A stretch of 64,000 bases of DNA, from positions 1 through 64,000 of the forward strand of contig CAILLO010000016.1 of the NCBI GenBank assembly GCA_903835065.1, in the 5' to 3' direction. The notes under the pieces were generated by a model. The model was not told where the DNA came from. It saw nothing but the letters and a program-made list of their open reading frames with translations, and did no database searches. This document shows, piece by piece, positions 42,501 through 52,081 of this stretch. The translations under genes and the position numbers were made by a program. The first letter of the stretch is position 1, and every line of letters begins with the position of its first letter. Source of the DNA: an uncultured Eubacteriales bacterium. GTDB taxonomy: Bacteria > Bacillota > Clostridia > Saccharofermentanales > UBA5734.

Positions 42501-43919
42501 ATGGCGGACCAGGGTCTTGCACCTTCAACCCTCGAAAACCTGCATGACGCGTTCGTGTTGATAGACCGGACGTGGCACTTCACCTGTGTGAACCAGGGCG
42601 CCTCCCGGATCTTCTCCCGCGAATCCTCCGAATACGTCGGCAAGCTCCTATGGGACGCGTTCCCGGTCCTGTCCGGGTCTCCGGAAGGGGAGGTCCTGCG
42701 TCGCACCATGGATCGCGGAGAATTCGCCCGACTGGAGATCCAGGGGACGGAGACGGGGCGCTGGTTCAACGTCTTCGTGGCGCCTTCCGCGGACGGGATC
42801 GCCGCCTATTGGCACGACGTCACGGAGTGGAAGGATAGCGGGATCCGCCTTCAGGAAGCGAAGCTCAGCGCCGAGCGCGAGGAACGGATCGCCTACCTCA
42901 GCTTCCATGACGTGCTGACCGGGCTCTACAACCGCCGCTACATGGAGGAGGAGATCCGGCGTCTCGACACGCCGCGCAACCTACCGATCTCGGTGATCGA
43001 GGGCGACGTCAACCGGCTGAAGCTGGTGAACGACGCGTTCGGGCACGAACGGGGCGACGAACTGCTGCGGATCGCCGCGGACACGCTGCGCGCGAGCTGC
43101 CGGCCGGAGGACCTGGTCGCCCGATGGGGCGGGGACGAGTTCATGGTGTTCCTGCCGCGGACCAGCCGGGAGGACGCCGAGAAGATCGTGGCACGGATCC
43201 GCGCGAACGCCGCTGTCCGGGAGGTCCAGTCGATTCCCGTCAGCATTTCGCTGGGTGTCGGCACGAAGACGTCGTCGGACCAGACGATCCTGTCGGTCGT
43301 GATCGCCGCGGACGATGCGATGTACCAGGTCAAGTCGAAAGAGAGCGAGCGCAGCCGGCGCCAGATGGTCGACACGATCGTCGGGATGTTCTACAGCAAG
43401 TACCCTTACGAGGAAAGCCACGCGAAACGGGTCGGTCAATTGTGCGAACGGACGGCGGAGGCGCTGGGATATGGGCCGGAGCGCGTGAAGAAGGTCGCCC
43501 TGGCCGGTCTGATGCACGATATCGGCAAGGTCGGCGTCGGCATCGAGATCATCGGCAAGCCCGGAGACCTGAACGAGGAGGAGTGGGTCAAGGTGCGGCG
43601 CCATTCCGAAATGGGGTATCGGATCGTCGGCTCGGCCGAGGAGATGATCGAGGTCGGCAACGCGATCCTCGCGCACCATGAGCGGGTCGACGGCACGGGG
43701 TACCCGAGTGGGACCCGGCGGGAGGAGATCCCCGAGGCGGCGCGCATCATCGCGGTCGTCGACGGGTTCGCCACGATGACCGGGCCGAGCCCGTACCGCA
43801 GGCCGATGAAGAAGGAAGCGGCCGTGGCGGAGATCCGCCGCAACGAAGGAACGCAGTTCGACCGGGAGATCGCCGAAGTCTTCATCGAGAAAGTGCTGTG
43901 CAAGGAGGTCTCCGGATGA
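42501..43919 (+). CDS. PAS-GGDEF-HD-GYP cyclic-di-GMP enzyme
   Basis: The 472-residue cytoplasmic protein has a PAS sensor domain (about 10-115), a GGDEF diguanylate cyclase domain with intact RWGGDEF at about 208-214 and a canonical RxxD inhibitory site (RPED) five residues before GGDEF, and a C-terminal HD-GYP phosphodiesterase domain with LMHDIGKVGV and HHERVDGTGYP. The usual DAxT near the end is ATMT. It may both make and degrade c-di-GMP. Start at 42501 is chosen because an earlier ATG precedes the predicted transcription start. Its stop overlaps the Rieske gene ATG. Confidence 0.9.
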   Translation: MADQGLAPSTLENLHDAFVLIDRTWHFTCVNQGASRIFSRESSEYVGKLLWDAFPVLSGSPEGEVLRRTMDRGEFARLEIQGTETGRWFNVFVAPSADGIAAYWHDVTEWKDSGIRLQEAKLSAEREERIAYLSFHDVLTGLYNRRYMEEEIRRLDTPRNLPISVIEGDVNRLKLVNDAFGHERGDELLRIAADTLRASCRPEDLVARWGGDEFMVFLPRTSREDAEKIVARIRANAAVREVQSIPVSISLGVGTKTSSDQTILSVVIAADDAMYQVKSKESERSRRQMVDTIVGMFYSKYPYEESHAKRVGQLCERTAEALGYGPERVKKVALAGLMHDIGKVGVGIEIIGKPGDLNEEEWVKVRRHSEMGYRIVGSAEEMIEVGNAILAHHERVDGTGYPSGTRREEIPEAARIIAVVDGFATMTGPSPYRRPMKKEAAVAEIRRNEGTQFDREIAEVFIEKVLCKEVSG

Positions 43920-44890
43920 TCCAGAACCAGTGGTATGCGGTGCTGCCGTCGAAGAAGGTGCCGAAAGGCCGGCTCGTGGCCGTGCGCCGCCTGAACCTCG
44001 ATCTCGTCCTGTTCCGCGACGAGAAGGGGGAGCTCGGTTGCGTCGTCGACCAGTGCCCGCACCGCGGCGTCGCGCTGAGCCACGGCAAGCTCAAGGGGAA
44101 CTGCGTTCAGTGCCCGTTCCACGGGCTGGAGTTCGACGGGAAGGGCCAGTGCCGCCTCGTCCCGGCAATCGGACGGGCGACGAAGACCGACCTCGGCCGG
44201 TACAACGTGAAGAGCTGCGCCGTGCGCGAGGCGAACGGCATCGTCTACCTCTGGAACGGAGAGGCGTCGACGGCGACGGATGGCCCGCTGCCGTGGTTCG
44301 CGGACTTCGTGGACGACTCGTATTCGATGAGCGAGATCGAGGATCCGTGGAACACGCACTATTCCCGGGCGATCGAGAACCAGCTCGACGTCGTGCACCT
44401 GCCGTTCGTGCACCACAACACGATCGGTCGGGGGAACCGGACGCTGGTCCACGGCCCGAAAGTGGTCTTCGAGGACGGGCGGATCGTGACCAGCGCGAAC
44501 AACGAGGTCGACGTCGGGCAGGAGATCCGGCCGGAGGCCGAGTGCACGATCAACTCCACGTATCTGATGTTCCGCTTCCCGAACGTCTGGATGAACCACA
44601 TCTCGGACAAGATCAAGGTGGCCGTGTATTTCGCGCCGGTCGACGACGAGAACACGATCCTATACCTCCGGTTCTACGGAAAGGCGACGGGGCTGCGGCC
44701 GCTGAACGCGTTCATGGCCTGGACGGGCAAGTACGCGAACCGCGTGATCGAGCGCCAGGACAAGCGGGTGGTGGTCACGCAGAAGCCGAAGGCGTCGGAG
44801 TACCGTTCGGGCGAGAAGCTCGTGCCGGGCGACCGGCCGATTGTGGTATACCGGAAGCTGCGGGACGAGAAGAAGGGCGCGAAGGCGTAG
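43916..44890 (+). CDS. Rieske-type (2Fe-2S) oxygenase alpha-subunit-like protein
   Basis: The 324-residue protein has a Rieske cluster (C47-x-H49 in QCPHRG and C66-x2-H69 in QCPFHG) and a catalytic non-haem iron site with N155, D158, H161 and H166 (ENQLDVVHLPFVHH). It matches single-component Rieske oxygenases such as vanillate demethylase or pheophorbide-type enzymes. No reductase partner is nearby. The ATG overlaps the stop of the c-di-GMP gene and AAGGAGG lies inside that gene's end, so the two are translationally coupled, a combination I have not seen described. Confidence 0.88.
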   Translation: MIQNQWYAVLPSKKVPKGRLVAVRRLNLDLVLFRDEKGELGCVVDQCPHRGVALSHGKLKGNCVQCPFHGLEFDGKGQCRLVPAIGRATKTDLGRYNVKSCAVREANGIVYLWNGEASTATDGPLPWFADFVDDSYSMSEIEDPWNTHYSRAIENQLDVVHLPFVHHNTIGRGNRTLVHGPKVVFEDGRIVTSANNEVDVGQEIRPEAECTINSTYLMFRFPNVWMNHISDKIKVAVYFAPVDDENTILYLRFYGKATGLRPLNAFMAWTGKYANRVIERQDKRVVVTQKPKASEYRSGEKLVPGDRPIVVYRKLRDEKKGAKA

Positions 44891-48700: not shown

Positions 48701-48772
48701 GCGGTGACCTTCGCCATGGTCTACCGGCTGCGCCGCATCGACATGATCGAGGCGCTGAAGACCTCGGAATAG
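45704..48772 (+). CDS. Large FtsX/MacB-family permease with periplasmic coiled coil
   Basis: The 1022-residue protein has an N-terminal membrane helix (RFIAIVAIVALGTAFFVGIK), a first extracytoplasmic region with a long Ala/Gln/Asp-rich helical stretch (about 270-455, periodic ADGQAKVDDGRAQL and LDAAQAQLAAGKAAL), a first FtsX core (about 475-615), a second helix set starting NILRYRARFLMTVVGVGG, and a second FtsX core near the C-terminus (DITERTREIATIKVLGFF). This duplicated, coiled-coil-bearing layout is typical of large Firmicutes ABC permeases. The start is a GTG overlapping the ATPase stop; AGGAG lies upstream. Confidence 0.88.
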   Translation: MRARAFRRDAFREIRRTLPRFIAIVAIVALGTAFFVGIKTTNPDMKATAANYFAETGFYDFRLLSNVGFTEADVEALRGVEGVTGVQPADSLDAVVRVGSSEKVFRVESLPDADGPMPGTAASIDRPHVVAGRLPTASGECVVERNTLADIDYAVGDRIHLTSGDGSDLAAKIATADYTVVGIVETPEYVSKDRGTTTIGNGVVSSFVLVPLSDFRQTVYSGVYVAMANPTGARAYSAAYDDLSAVVKVRLDALSAEQAPRRTLQILSDAWDAWRAASAEYDRSAYDARQQMSDAWAKIADGQAKVDDGRAQLAAAEKSAAARFASAGKDLAAGRAAWQSSETSYEANRAAFDAAVAQAKQLGDYDAQKPAFDARQAQLDAAQAQLAAGKAALDAQVATLAKSKRDAAAAFAATKATLDASQSDLDQGKKDYATQKADADQKLADGYATLMDGRAKLDDLPTATWYVLDRSTNVGYVDYGAAADRLDAIARVFPVLFVLVAMLICFASMSRMVEEQRTYMGTLKSLGYSRLRIASKFLLYAFSASVLGAAAGLYFGFEFFPPTIYHAYSALYTIPNLVLLFDGPFAAAALAAGVAVTCGAALLVAFEELASTAATLMRPRAPKPGRVILLERIRPLWRRMSFTWKVTARNILRYRARFLMTVVGVGGCTALLLVGFGLRDAVKTIVDEQYGSLFLYQATVTLQDGATDAQRAAVKTAVEAETHYAASLDRRIESVTVSAGDGGVSMDASLLVPADPAGMAPFIVLRDRVTQASIVLGDEGVVLTEKLAGRVGLKAGDAVTLTDADGKSVRTKVTAVTENYLRHFVYMTPSLYARLYGSAPVDNSILVDLTVRSAEAQQTFSKTVVTTGGISSVVLTSDNVSKFDDSMKSIYSIVLVLIFSAGLLSFIVLYTLTDINITERTREIATIKVLGFFDREVASYIFRENLVLTLAGVAAGLLAGSPLSHYVIGSAEVDLVMFGRRILPASFAEAAALTLAFSLAVTFAMVYRLRRIDMIEALKTSE

Positions 48773-48859: not shown

Positions 48860-48888
48860 TTGACAAGAGAATCGATTGCGATGATATT
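48860..48888 (+). promoter_or_regulatory. Promoter of the DsrE-TusA-DsrMK operon
   Basis: A consensus TTGACA (48860-48865) and GATATT (48883-48888) are 17 bases apart, 44 bases before the first ATG. Upstream a short perfect stem (48773-48790, 6-bp arms) follows the permease stop and may end that transcript. Confidence 0.65.
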
Positions 48889-48931
48889 GAGTGGGATGGT
48901 CCGGAATCGACACGAAGAGGAGGAACCCGTC

Positions 48932-49468
48932 ATGGACTTCGAAAAGGAACTGCTGGCCCTGAAACAACAGGTCGCGGACAAGCCGGGTCCGGAGAACAAG
49001 CTGACGATGATCGTCTTCTCGGGCGAGCTCGACAAGCACCTCGCCGCGCTCATCATCGCCACTGGCGCCGCCGCGATGGGCATGAAGGTCGTCCTCTTCT
49101 ACACGTTCTGGGGCACCGCGGCCCTCCGCTCGCCCAAGAAGAAGGCCAATGGCAAGAACCTGATTGAGAAGATGTTCGGCATCATGCTGCCCCGCGGCAA
49201 CAACAAGCTGATCCTTTCCAAGATGCACACGCTGGGCGCCGGCACCGCCATGATCAAGGGCCTCATGAAGAAGAAGCACATCGCGAGCCTCGACGAGATG
49301 TACGAGATGGCCGGCGCGCTCGGCGTCCAGATCTACGTCTGCGAGATGTCGATGGACCTGATGGGCATGAAGATGGAAGAGATGATCGACTATCCGAACA
49401 TGCGGAGCGCCGGCGTCGCCACCATGCTCGCCGATGCCAAGGAATCGTCCGTCCAGTTCTTCATCTGA
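48932..49468 (+). CDS. DsrE/DsrF/DrsH-family sulfur-transfer protein
   Basis: The 178-residue protein has the DsrE-type flavodoxin-like core: MIVFSGELDKHLAALIIATG, VVLFYTFWGTAALR, and a conserved Cys at C137 (QIYVCEMSMDLMGM), the expected sulfur-accepting position. It matches the longer DsrE3/DrsH-like members that hand sulfane sulfur to or from TusA. AGAGGAGG precedes the ATG at 48932; an earlier ATG lies in the promoter. The TusA gene follows after 14 bases. Confidence 0.88.
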   Translation: MDFEKELLALKQQVADKPGPENKLTMIVFSGELDKHLAALIIATGAAAMGMKVVLFYTFWGTAALRSPKKKANGKNLIEKMFGIMLPRGNNKLILSKMHTLGAGTAMIKGLMKKKHIASLDEMYEMAGALGVQIYVCEMSMDLMGMKMEEMIDYPNMRSAGVATMLADAKESSVQFFI

Positions 49469-49482
49469 GAAGGAGAGAGACA

Positions 49483-49722
49483 ATGGCCGACTACGAGATC
49501 AAGAAGACCCTCGACTACAAGGGGCTCGCCTGCCCGATGCCGATCGTCAAGACCAGCATGGAGATGCCGAAGATCGCCGTAGGCGACGTCGTCGAGATTC
49601 TGTCCACCGACCCCGGCTCGATCGCCGACTTCCCGGCCTGGGCCCGCACGACCGGACAGGCCGTGCTCGAGGTCAAGCAGGAGCCCGGACTGATCCGCAT
49701 CTACGTCAAGCGCCAGAAATAG
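49483..49722 (+). CDS. TusA-family sulfur carrier
   Basis: The 79-residue protein has an intact active-site motif LACPMPIV (CPxP) and the rest of the TusA fold. TusA carries sulfur as a persulfide on the Cys. Placement between a DsrE homologue and a DsrM/DsrK pair implies the carried sulfur is oxidised or reduced through the membrane complex. AAGGAGAG precedes the ATG. A paralogue with an altered motif lies at 28-267. Confidence 0.93.
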   Translation: MADYEIKKTLDYKGLACPMPIVKTSMEMPKIAVGDVVEILSTDPGSIADFPAWARTTGQAVLEVKQEPGLIRIYVKRQK

Positions 49723-49777
49723 TCGGCCGCCCCCGCAGGCCGACTCGCACGACGACTACCCTGAAGGAGGTCCGAAG

Positions 49778-50737
49778 ATGGCATTCGGGTTGTTCTCCCT
49801 GTCTGCGCCCGTCTTGATCGACGCGCTCGCCAAGGCCACCGCGAAGGCGACGGCGACGCCGATTCCGACGCTGGCCCCGACGCTGGCCCCGACCGCGACG
49901 CTCGCGGCCGGCGTGTCGCCGACCCTGACCCCGCTCGCCACGCTGACGCCCTTCGCGACCGTGACGCCCGACGTGATCGGCAGCGGCTCGATCGTCGTCG
50001 CGCAGCACACCGGGCTTCTCTGGGTGTTCGACCAGCTCGAATATCTGATCATGGTCCCGCTGGTCTATCTTTCGATCCTGTTCTGCATCGGGATGCTGGT
50101 CTATCGGATCGTCCAGATCTGGCGCGCCCCCCGGTCGCCCTTCACCCTGCAGGTCTTCCCGTCGATGAAGAAGCCCAGGATCGCCGCGCTCGGCGACACC
50201 TTCGCGATGCCGCAGGTCCGCCGCCACCAGCCGCTCTTCTGGGTCTTCCTGATGATCTTCCACGTCTCGCTCGTATTGCTGGTCCTGGGGCACCTCGACC
50301 TGCTGCCCCAGATCAGCCTGGTGCCGGAAAGCTCGCGCGACATGCTGGGCGGCGGACTCGTCGGCGTCGGCGTGACCGTTCCGCTGTTCTACTTCCTGTT
50401 CCGGCGCTTCAAGACGCCCAACCGGGAGATCAGCGTGCTCGCGGACTACCTCCTGCTGATTCTCGTGATCTTCCTCGCCCTGTTCGGCGACCTGATGAGC
50501 TGGGGCAACTCCTGGACCACGACCGGCTTCATCCTCACCAAGCAGCACTTCGCGGGCTACCTGGACAGCCTCGTCCGGTTCACGTTCCTCGACCCTCGCT
50601 ACTGGCTCAGCGGCACGCACTACCACTTCGCCGTGCTGCACGTCCTGCTGGCCGAGCTGTTCTTCGTGGTGGTCCCGTTCTCCAAGATCGTGCACGCCTT
50701 CCTGGCGCTGCCGGTCAACCTCCTGAGGAGGAAATAG
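49778..50737 (+). CDS. DsrM/NarI-like membrane cytochrome b subunit with Thr/Pro-rich N-terminus
   Basis: The 319-residue protein has five membrane segments (about 88-113, 150-175, 190-212, 220-245 and 285-312). His pairs in RRHQPLFW, MIFHVSLVLLVLGH and GTHYHFAVLHVLL could ligate two b-type haems and quinone, as in NarI, DsrM and HdrE. Residues 15-68 are an unusual Ala/Thr/Pro repeat (TPIPTLAPTLAPT) ahead of the first helix, absent from usual family members. It ends one base before the DsrK-like gene; GGAGG precedes the ATG. Confidence 0.85.
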   Translation: MAFGLFSLSAPVLIDALAKATAKATATPIPTLAPTLAPTATLAAGVSPTLTPLATLTPFATVTPDVIGSGSIVVAQHTGLLWVFDQLEYLIMVPLVYLSILFCIGMLVYRIVQIWRAPRSPFTLQVFPSMKKPRIAALGDTFAMPQVRRHQPLFWVFLMIFHVSLVLLVLGHLDLLPQISLVPESSRDMLGGGLVGVGVTVPLFYFLFRRFKTPNREISVLADYLLLILVIFLALFGDLMSWGNSWTTTGFILTKQHFAGYLDSLVRFTFLDPRYWLSGTHYHFAVLHVLLAELFFVVVPFSKIVHAFLALPVNLLRRK

Positions 50738-50738
50738 C

Positions 50739-51998
50739 ATGGATGCCGTGATGCAGGCCGAACTCAAGCGTCTCTTCGAGACGAAGCTCAACCGGGCCAT
50801 GCGCCTCTACCTCGAGACCTGCACGCACTGCGGCGTCTGCGTCGAGGCATGCCACGTCTGGCAGTCGATGCCGGAGTCGAAGTACACGGCCGTCGGCCGC
50901 GCGGAGATCGTCCGCAAGGTCTTCCTGAAGTACTTCTCGCTGGAAGGGCGGATCGCCCCCTGGGCCGGCGAGACGATCGAGCTCGACGACGTCGCGGTGG
51001 AGCGGTTCTACGACGCCGCCTACTCGTGCACGGGCTGCCGCCGGTGCATGGTCTACTGCCCGTTCGGCATCGACACGCAGCAGATCATGAGCATCGCCAA
51101 GCTTCTCCTCGTGGGCGCCGACAAGGAGCCCAAGCTGCTGTCCATGCTCGCCGACATGAGCATCGCCAAGGGCGAGGACGTCGAGAGCTCCTCCGCGGGC
51201 TTCGCCGAGGCGATCGCGAACCTCGAGCCCCAGGTCGAGGCACTGTACCCGACCCCGGCCGGCCGGAAGACGATTCCGCTCGGCGTCCAGAAGGCGGACG
51301 TCATGTTCGTCGGCCTGTCCGGCGCGCACTCGATCGTGCCCGCCGCCGCGATCCTCAATGCCGCCGGCATCAACTGGACCCTCAGTTCCTTCGAGGCCGT
51401 GAACTTCGGCGCGTTCATGGGCGACCCGAAGCGCACGAAGGCGATCGCCCAGCGCATCGTCGCCGAGGCCGAGCGCCTGCAGGCCAAGCGCGTCGCAATC
51501 GTCGAATGCGGCACCGCGTACCGCGTCATGAAGTACCAGACCGGGGAGCACTCCTTCGAGACCGTGGCCTTCGTGGAGCTGATCGCCAAGTACCTGAAGG
51601 GCGGCATGATCCGTCTGCGCCGCAACGTCGACAAGCGCCTGACCTACCACGACCCCTGCCAGGTCGCCCGCAACGGCGGCATCTACGAAGCCCCGCGCTT
51701 CGTGATCTCGAAGCTCGCGCAGGACTTCGTGGAACTGACCCCGAATCGCGAGTACAACTGGTGCTGCGGCGGGGGCGGCGGCCTGATCGCCATGGGCGAA
51801 CTGGAGTTCCGCATGAAGTCCTCGCGCGTCAAGATGGAGCAGGTCAAGGCGACCGGCGCGGGCGCGATCTGCACGATCTGCGAAAACTGCCACACGCAGT
51901 TGACCGACCTGAACGCCCATTACGACATGGGGCTCGACGTGCATTCCCTGACCATGCTCGCGGCGCACGCGCTGGTGAAGCCGGGCGAGAAGGCCTAG
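50739..51998 (+). CDS. HdrD/DsrK-like iron-sulfur protein
   Basis: The 419-residue protein has two 4Fe-4S motifs, CTHCGVCVEAC and CTGCRRCMVYC, with the last Cys followed by Pro, then two CCG-type domains. The C-terminal CCG domain is complete (YHDPCQVAR, WCCGGGGGL, ICENCHTQL) and could hold the non-cubane 4Fe-4S cluster that handles disulfides in HdrB/HdrD. The first CCG domain is degenerate, with a single Cys in VECGTAYRV. It would pass electrons between the membrane subunit and a thiol/persulfide substrate, plausibly TusA-bound sulfur; that last step is inference. Confidence 0.9.
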   Translation: MDAVMQAELKRLFETKLNRAMRLYLETCTHCGVCVEACHVWQSMPESKYTAVGRAEIVRKVFLKYFSLEGRIAPWAGETIELDDVAVERFYDAAYSCTGCRRCMVYCPFGIDTQQIMSIAKLLLVGADKEPKLLSMLADMSIAKGEDVESSSAGFAEAIANLEPQVEALYPTPAGRKTIPLGVQKADVMFVGLSGAHSIVPAAAILNAAGINWTLSSFEAVNFGAFMGDPKRTKAIAQRIVAEAERLQAKRVAIVECGTAYRVMKYQTGEHSFETVAFVELIAKYLKGGMIRLRRNVDKRLTYHDPCQVARNGGIYEAPRFVISKLAQDFVELTPNREYNWCCGGGGGLIAMGELEFRMKSSRVKMEQVKATGAGAICTICENCHTQLTDLNAHYDMGLDVHSLTMLAAHALVKPGEKA

Positions 51999-52022
51999 AC
52001 GGGCGGGGATCCGTCACGGCTT

Positions 52023-52081
52023 CGCGACCTGCATCCACAGGTCGCGGCGATCGGCCCGGTCCGCACGACCGGGCCTTTTTT
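52023..52081 (+). terminator. Tandem hairpins with intrinsic terminator after the DsrK-like gene
   Basis: A first perfect 9-bp stem (CGCGACCTG/CAGGTCGCG, 52023-52046) is followed by a second perfect 9-bp stem (GGCCCGGTC/GACCGGGCC, 52053-52075) and six T. The second is a strong rho-independent terminator. Confidence 0.9.

Follow-up and report, generated by a model that had tools for sequence, protein, structure and literature searches.

The window analyzed here comprises 64,000 nt of contig CAILLO010000016.1, from the draft genome of an uncultured Eubacteriales bacterium (82 contigs, 98.5% complete, 3.9% contamination; termed the host genome below). At positions 48860..52081 of its + strand lies a compact unit in which the genes of two putative sulfur carriers, a DsrE2-like protein and TusA, precede those of a DsrM/NarI-like membrane protein and a DsrK-like iron-sulfur protein. 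According to the listing of open reading frames (ORFs) the four genes are tightly spaced on the + strand between 48932 and 51998, and the preceding ORF ends at 48772. A first-pass annotation had placed them under one promoter and one terminator, and matching sites were located on either side:

48860..48888, + strand: promoter-like site, TTGACA - 17 - GATATT, 10/12 matches
48932..49468, + strand: DsrE2-like protein, 178 aa, with one cysteine (C137); PF13686, 162.8 bits, cut-off 25
49483..49722, + strand: TusA-type sulfur carrier, 79 aa, CPMP motif, sole cysteine C17; PF01206, 78.1 bits, cut-off 28.6
49778..50737, + strand: DsrM/NarI-like membrane protein, 319 aa; PF02665 (nitrate reductase gamma), 37.7 bits, cut-off 22.9
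50739..51998, + strand: DsrK-like iron-sulfur protein, 419 aa; PF02754 (CCG), 49.1 bits, cut-off 20.6; also PF13183
52053..52075, + strand: terminator-like hairpin of 9 pairs, then TTTTTT

In the scanned 3.5 kb three promoter-like sites were counted versus 0.4 (standard deviation 0.7) in shuffled sequences, and four terminator-like sites versus 1.4 (standard deviation 1.3); a consensus match alone is no proof of function. Each of the four starts is preceded by a purine-rich, Shine-Dalgarno-like stretch. The DsrE homologue noted initially could be specified as a DsrE2-type protein. It belongs to PF13686, its nearest solved chain is 3pnx (98.9 bits), and it misses the NCBIfam DsrE2 equivalog NF047629 (62.7 bits, cut-off 210). 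TusA is intact and has the CPxP cysteine of its family, as had been claimed. Hydropathy gave about five hydrophobic helices and a Thr/Pro-rich N-terminal extension for the membrane protein. Its scores with the NCBIfam models TmcC (34.3 bits) and NarI (26.6 bits) are each under the cut-off, and the DsrM equivalog NF038037 was not among its matches at E <= 0.001. The last protein, annotated before as HdrD/DsrK-like, has a 4Fe-4S dicluster domain, two CxxCxxCxxxC [4Fe-4S] motifs and the predicted single CCG domain. An assembly chimera is unlikely because a genus-mate (L079) carries the four-gene unit behind the same upstream sequence; in blastn, stretches of 3.2 kb and 1.55 kb matched at 73.9% and 81.4%, respectively. 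The G + C content is 64.7%, against 68.0% for the window.

The unit had been regarded as a private minimal operon. Instead, it is widespread and conserved. A protein search with the DsrK-like protein yielded 2719 relatives, and 16 of the 120 listed were aligned with the window. A genome scan with DsrK, using one genome per species, confirmed 105 loci; the counts below refer to the best 80 of the 105, with phyla taken from the names of the sequence records. These loci belong to Bacillota, Spirochaetota, Eisenbacteria and, chiefly, Desulfobacterota. All four genes on one strand and in identical order were present in 66/80 loci, where the matched stretches are separated by 44, 63 and 6 bases in the median. 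Therefore, the linkage is beyond chance. Ten of the other 14 loci are no more than 1.9 kb away from a contig end. At one of these ten (L031) DsrE2 and DsrM are present with a partial TusA match in the gap. L082, not among the ten, has an altered gene order and a split DsrE2 match. The unit's DsrK was detected at E <= 1e-100 in 3/118 genomes, the host genome counted. Together with the position of the window DsrK inside a Bacillota-Spirochaetota group (see below) this suggests a patchy, probably horizontal inheritance. Plasmid-borne copies were considered as well; the best among 29 plasmid records was 30% identical, too distant to count. Literature searches aimed at the genes found no published description of the four-gene unit among the titles and abstracts listed; most subscription papers were outside their coverage and a description elsewhere is possible.

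A number of residues are invariant in all sequences that have a residue at the respective column. This applies to C137 of DsrE2 (67/67) and C17 of TusA (71/71). In the DsrM-like protein H162 (73/73) as well as H172, H281, H288 and H306 (74/74 each) are conserved. When aligned, weakly (E 0.0034), with the NarI chain of E. coli, H162, H288 and H306 pair with histidines and H172 falls at the GH motif of NarI. As expected of a canonical DsrM, four histidines that would serve as heme ligands, H162, H172, H288 and H306, are present. In the DsrK-like protein the eight ferredoxin-type cysteines (80/80) and C257, C307, C342, C343, C381 and C384 (79/79) do not vary. Because carrier cysteines, heme-type histidines and cluster cysteines are all invariant, the unit looks as if selected as a redox system with two single-cysteine carriers.

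The membrane protein and the iron-sulfur protein had been labeled DsrM and DsrK. The likeness stands, the canonical identity does not. With the DsrK equivalog NF045796 the window DsrK scored 249.1 bits (cut-off 400). The next-best NCBIfam models were TmcB (217.4 bits, cut-off 735) and HmcF (192.7 bits, cut-off 750), both so far under their equivalog cut-offs that a Tmc or Hmc identity was rejected. The DsrK model was then run on ten genomes with a unit-type DsrK, including the one of L054, a locus without carriers. In 8/10 a canonical copy of 716-765 bits was located elsewhere in the genome; in Rectinema subterraneum SURF-ANA1 the unit's DsrK was the sole match. Over the 30 loci of this search unit-type DsrKs scored at least 510 bits against the window DsrK and other paralogs at most 247.5. 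Neither TusA nor DsrE2 was found in a short stretch around those other paralogs. In a tree of 56 proteins (36 unit-type, 8 canonical, 12 other) all 36 unit-type proteins were on one side of a branch with a Shimodaira-Hasegawa-like approximate likelihood ratio (SH-aLRT) of 100; this was a quick search with a warning for long branches, among them L114, L101 and L110. Besides the window, 35 of the 80 loci were represented in the tree; of these, L033, L054 and L082 lack carriers or vary in them, and L007, L008 and L011 are cut off upstream. The window DsrK was placed with Bacillota inside a Bacillota-Spirochaetota group, outside the canonical proteins. Because DsrK groups apart and misses the equivalog cut-off, the pair is, as judged from sequence, DsrMK-like and not canonical DsrMK. 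At L054:5953-11368 a DsrM-DsrK pair of the unit's group without TusA/DsrE2 has additional DsrK-like genes on either side.

Initially, the lack of DsrAB and DsrC had been stated for the operon; it holds for the entire draft genome. DsrC had 0 matches, with a model that was positive in only 1/14 controls, E. coli. The sulfite reductase hemoprotein (PF01077), which served as a test for DsrAB, also had 0 matches, with 11/14 controls positive. A canonical DsrMK with its partner encoded elsewhere was therefore rejected. As for an Hdr set elsewhere in the genome, the only CCG match was the unit's own DsrK and no second CCG protein was found; HdrA itself was not searched for genome-wide. This supports the earlier notion of a membrane pair with TusA/DsrE2, rather than DsrC, as its obvious soluble partner. 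Of the proposed survey, the search for co-occurring dsr genes covered 50 of the 80 genomes. DsrC was present in 31/50 and DsrA in 27/50, 22 of them over the cut-off. Since the dsrA model also produced matches below cut-off in 8/14 controls, a different sulfite reductase may be encoded in the 5 genomes where DsrA stayed under the threshold. Outside Desulfobacterota, DsrA was found in 0/17 genomes and DsrC in 1/17; in Rectinema subterraneum SURF-ANA1 neither was found. Incomplete assemblies weaken each single absence, and 0/17 for DsrA, including a named strain, is stronger.

We propose, with a probability of roughly one half, that the four proteins constitute a membrane persulfide reductase whose sulfur carrier, in place of DsrC, is TusA together with DsrE2. 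The main reason for reading the unit as a persulfide or disulfide reductase is a fusion protein in the host genome (L084, G000:C18:165-2678), detected as the second DsrE-family hit. Its 837-aa chain joins a coenzyme A-disulfide-reductase-like part (462.7 bits with the equivalog, cut-off 578.8), a rhodanese, TusA and DsrE2. By analogy, TusA and DsrE2 may act as carriers for a disulfide-type reductase in the four-gene unit, too. No paper on such a fusion protein was found. The likeliest work of the complex would be to reduce sulfane sulfur carried by TusA/DsrE2 to sulfide at the expense of quinol. Polysulfide, thiosulfate or a low-molecular persulfide would provide the sulfane sulfur that is loaded on C17 of TusA. 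C137 of DsrE2 would hand it on or take part, as the second thiol, in a mixed di- or trisulfide. This would be cleaved at the CCG cluster of the DsrK-like protein, with release of sulfide. Electrons would pass from the (demethyl)menaquinol pool via two hemes b of the DsrM-like protein and two [4Fe-4S] clusters of the DsrK-like protein. Persulfide transfer from TusA to DsrE has been demonstrated in another system (PMC13293266). In anaerobes lacking a sulfite reductase such a complex might serve as an electron sink or clear sulfane sulfur, in parallel to the soluble fusion protein of the host genome.

A number of points weigh against this proposal. TusA and DsrE2 of the unit have one cysteine each; DsrC uses two (PMC3397948). 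DsrE2B of Metallosphaera cuprina was unreactive with every sulfur compound tried (PMC4175335). L030 and L033 keep TusA-DsrM-DsrK with no DsrE2 seen, and L054 shows neither carrier. Of the 17 genomes outside Desulfobacterota one, an Eisenbacteria metagenome-assembled genome, does have a DsrC match (G010:C179:1538-1837). Since DsrC was detected in 30/33 of the remaining, Desulfobacterota-like genomes (DsrA in 27/33), a link of the unit to DsrC is possible in these 33. Moreover, when compared with PDB structures, the DsrK model matched EtfD of Mycobacterium smegmatis best, although the model is weak: the mean predicted local distance difference test (pLDDT) score was 63.4 with residues 16-145 below 50, so only its later half is informative, and racemase-like matches were ignored. 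This match shows that CCG and NarI-like modules can serve other partners. Last, judged by redox potentials, reduction of polysulfide by menaquinol is uphill, which favors electron flow in the reverse direction.

The quinone supply is an additional difficulty. The first-pass annotation had named menaquinone as the redox partner, and this part is weakened. In the host genome MenB had 0 matches (controls positive 11/14), as had MqnA/MqnD of the futalosine route (controls positive 4/14); de novo menaquinone synthesis is thus unsupported. One UbiA-family protein is encoded (L086:5974-6942, G000:C47), with 1,4-dihydroxy-2-naphthoate (DHNA) polyprenyltransferases as best models, below their cut-offs. 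With this MenA-like prenyltransferase and no MenB or MqnA/D match, quinone synthesis in this organism would depend on the scavenging of DHNA. A UbiA-family match was present in 17/17 genomes outside Desulfobacterota, but also in 14/14 controls. The ten UbiA-family proteins that were scanned, from 9 of the 17 genomes, are MenA- or MqnP-like. Four best hits from Spirochaetota resemble MqnP, one of them sharing a reading frame with a menaquinone decarboxylase whose score exceeds the cut-off; the other six resemble MenA, 2/6 above a cut-off. Taken together, a quinone link is plausible.

The main rival explanation keeps the complex and reverses its direction: sulfide or TusA-persulfide would be oxidized, as by SQR or to a TusA/DsrE2 trisulfide, and electrons would enter the quinone pool. 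This is downhill to menaquinone. DsrMKJOP has been proposed to oxidize persulfidated DsrC (PMC6018796), and in sulfur oxidizers without DsrC tusA-dsrE2 is tied to Hdr-like complexes (PMC4175335). On the other hand, the host genome has no sulfite reductase match that could use a trisulfide. Further, several hosts belong to lineages regarded as fermentative anaerobes, with no evident acceptor for sulfide oxidation. We consider the reverse direction unlikely, albeit a serious contender.

Much less probably, the complex exchanges electrons between quinone and some other soluble carrier, as EtfD serves the electron transfer flavoprotein (ETF), with TusA and DsrE2 merely regulating or maturing the complex. 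EtfD is the best match of DsrK in the PDB by sequence as well as by structure (entry 9ojn in both cases), and TmcB and HmcF come next among the NCBIfam models. But neither ETF nor another carrier was seen among the recurrent neighbor clusters, part of which were scanned, and TusA and DsrE2 recur with invariant cysteines. It is also quite improbable, and the least favored of the three, that the carriers supply sulfur for biosynthesis (tRNA thiolation, molybdenum cofactor, Fe-S clusters) while the DsrMK-like pair only keeps their thiols reduced. TusA does serve tRNA and molybdenum cofactor pathways in E. coli (PMC4175335) and a Tus relay is described (PMC3397948). Opposed to this, no biosynthetic gene was present in the unit or in the recurrent neighbor clusters subjected to Pfam (4, 5, 13, 20 and 21 only), the tight linkage is to a membrane redox pair, and DsrK occurs in only 3/118 genomes, unlike an essential route.

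How does the proposed TusA/DsrE2-dependent persulfide reductase relate to known systems? With the DsrMK part of DsrMKJOP, which operates with DsrC in sulfate reducers and sulfur oxidizers, it shares a NarI-type membrane protein, a CCG/[4Fe-4S] protein and a presumed small cytoplasmic sulfur carrier. It differs in that the window operon lacks DsrC, DsrAB and DsrJOP and has TusA and DsrE2, and in the separate DsrK group. Seven assemblies with a basal-clade DsrMK in which no DsrAB was found have been reported; the accessible part of that paper gives no TusA/DsrE operon (PMC10504309). The tusA-dsrE2/dsrE3A-hdr (sHdr) clusters of sulfur oxidizers are similar as TusA and DsrE2 adjoin a heterodisulfide-reductase-like enzyme without DsrC (PMC4175335). 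There the enzyme is HdrC1B1A-hyp-HdrC2B2, here a membrane DsrMK-like pair, and HdrB-type CCG subunits were not found, the sole CCG match in the host genome being the unit's DsrK. The YTD cluster and DsrEFH type II likewise have TusA plus a DsrE-family protein in anaerobes. Archaeal dsrEFH type II occurs with genes such as dsrMK or qmoAB (PMC13293266), and YTD consists of a yedE-related gene, tusA, dsrE and two conserved hypotheticals (PMC13047784). The window operon has neither yedE nor the hypothetical pair (operon only; no genome-wide yedE search was made), and its DsrE is of the PF13686 kind. The fusion protein of the host genome ties the same two carrier domains to a disulfide-reductase-like enzyme. 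This is a flavoprotein with a pyridine-nucleotide fold, the unit has a membrane and an iron-sulfur protein. TmcBC and HmcEF also combine a CCG iron-sulfur protein with a NarI-like membrane anchor, and unlike these the unit has no cytochrome c gene. Mycobacterial EtfD is longer, with 742 residues in the matched structure.

Tentatively, the unit may be viewed as a further Hdr-like relay. TusA, with DsrE2, would replace DsrC and the DsrMK-like complex would respire sulfane sulfur bound to TusA in anaerobes that lack both sulfite reductase and DsrC. In many Desulfobacterota, where the unit occurs beside DsrA, DsrC and canonical DsrK, it would provide sulfate reducers with a separate route for sulfane sulfur that does without DsrC. 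If true, sulfane-sulfur respiration exists in lineages, Spirochaetota and Bacillota included, which are missed by the markers dsrAB, dsrC, psrA/phsA and YTD, and TusA is a substrate of a membrane CCG enzyme. Four genes without DsrC and DsrAB would be a simple test case for the action of a CCG cluster on protein-bound sulfur. They are also a warning that dsrK- or dsrM-like genes alone do not denote sulfite or sulfate reduction. As a whole, the first-pass observation was confirmed and its interpretation partly supported.

All counts of neighboring genes given here are minimum values, without correction for contig ends, because the greedy gene calling picked antisense ORFs in GC-rich loci. Pfam was run on 3/31 MarR-type, 3/5 ArsR-type, 2/21 FadL-like and 2/4 rhodanese-metallo-beta-lactamase proteins; the others were placed by BLAST clustering. 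Upstream of DsrE2 a MarR-type gene was present in at least 31/80 loci (e.g. L081:5828-6310), with three cysteines invariant in 31/31. An ArsR-type gene was upstream in at least 5/80, with cysteines at three columns in 4/5 each. The MarR-type regulator is a candidate persulfide or thiol sensor. Next to the unit of the window itself neither a MarR- nor an ArsR-type regulator was identified. Downstream of DsrK an outer-membrane protein of the OmpP1/FadL/TodX family is encoded in at least 21/80 loci (e.g. L057:3906-5159 and L036:9704-10969, the two subjected to Pfam), a possible importer of hydrophobic sulfur compounds. Such uptake, like sensing of thiols by the regulators, would fit a persulfide reductase. 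A small ORF cluster (21) near DsrK had no Pfam hit. A rhodanese-metallo-beta-lactamase protein was nearby in at least 4/80 loci (L081:9394-10551 and L032:5483-6628, both subjected to Pfam, L065:5552-6694 and L078:3349-4614); it is possibly persulfide-dioxygenase-like. Elsewhere in the window, at 43898-44890, a Rieske/VanA_C-type oxygenase-like protein is encoded upstream of an ABC transporter, which would be odd if the host is an anaerobe.

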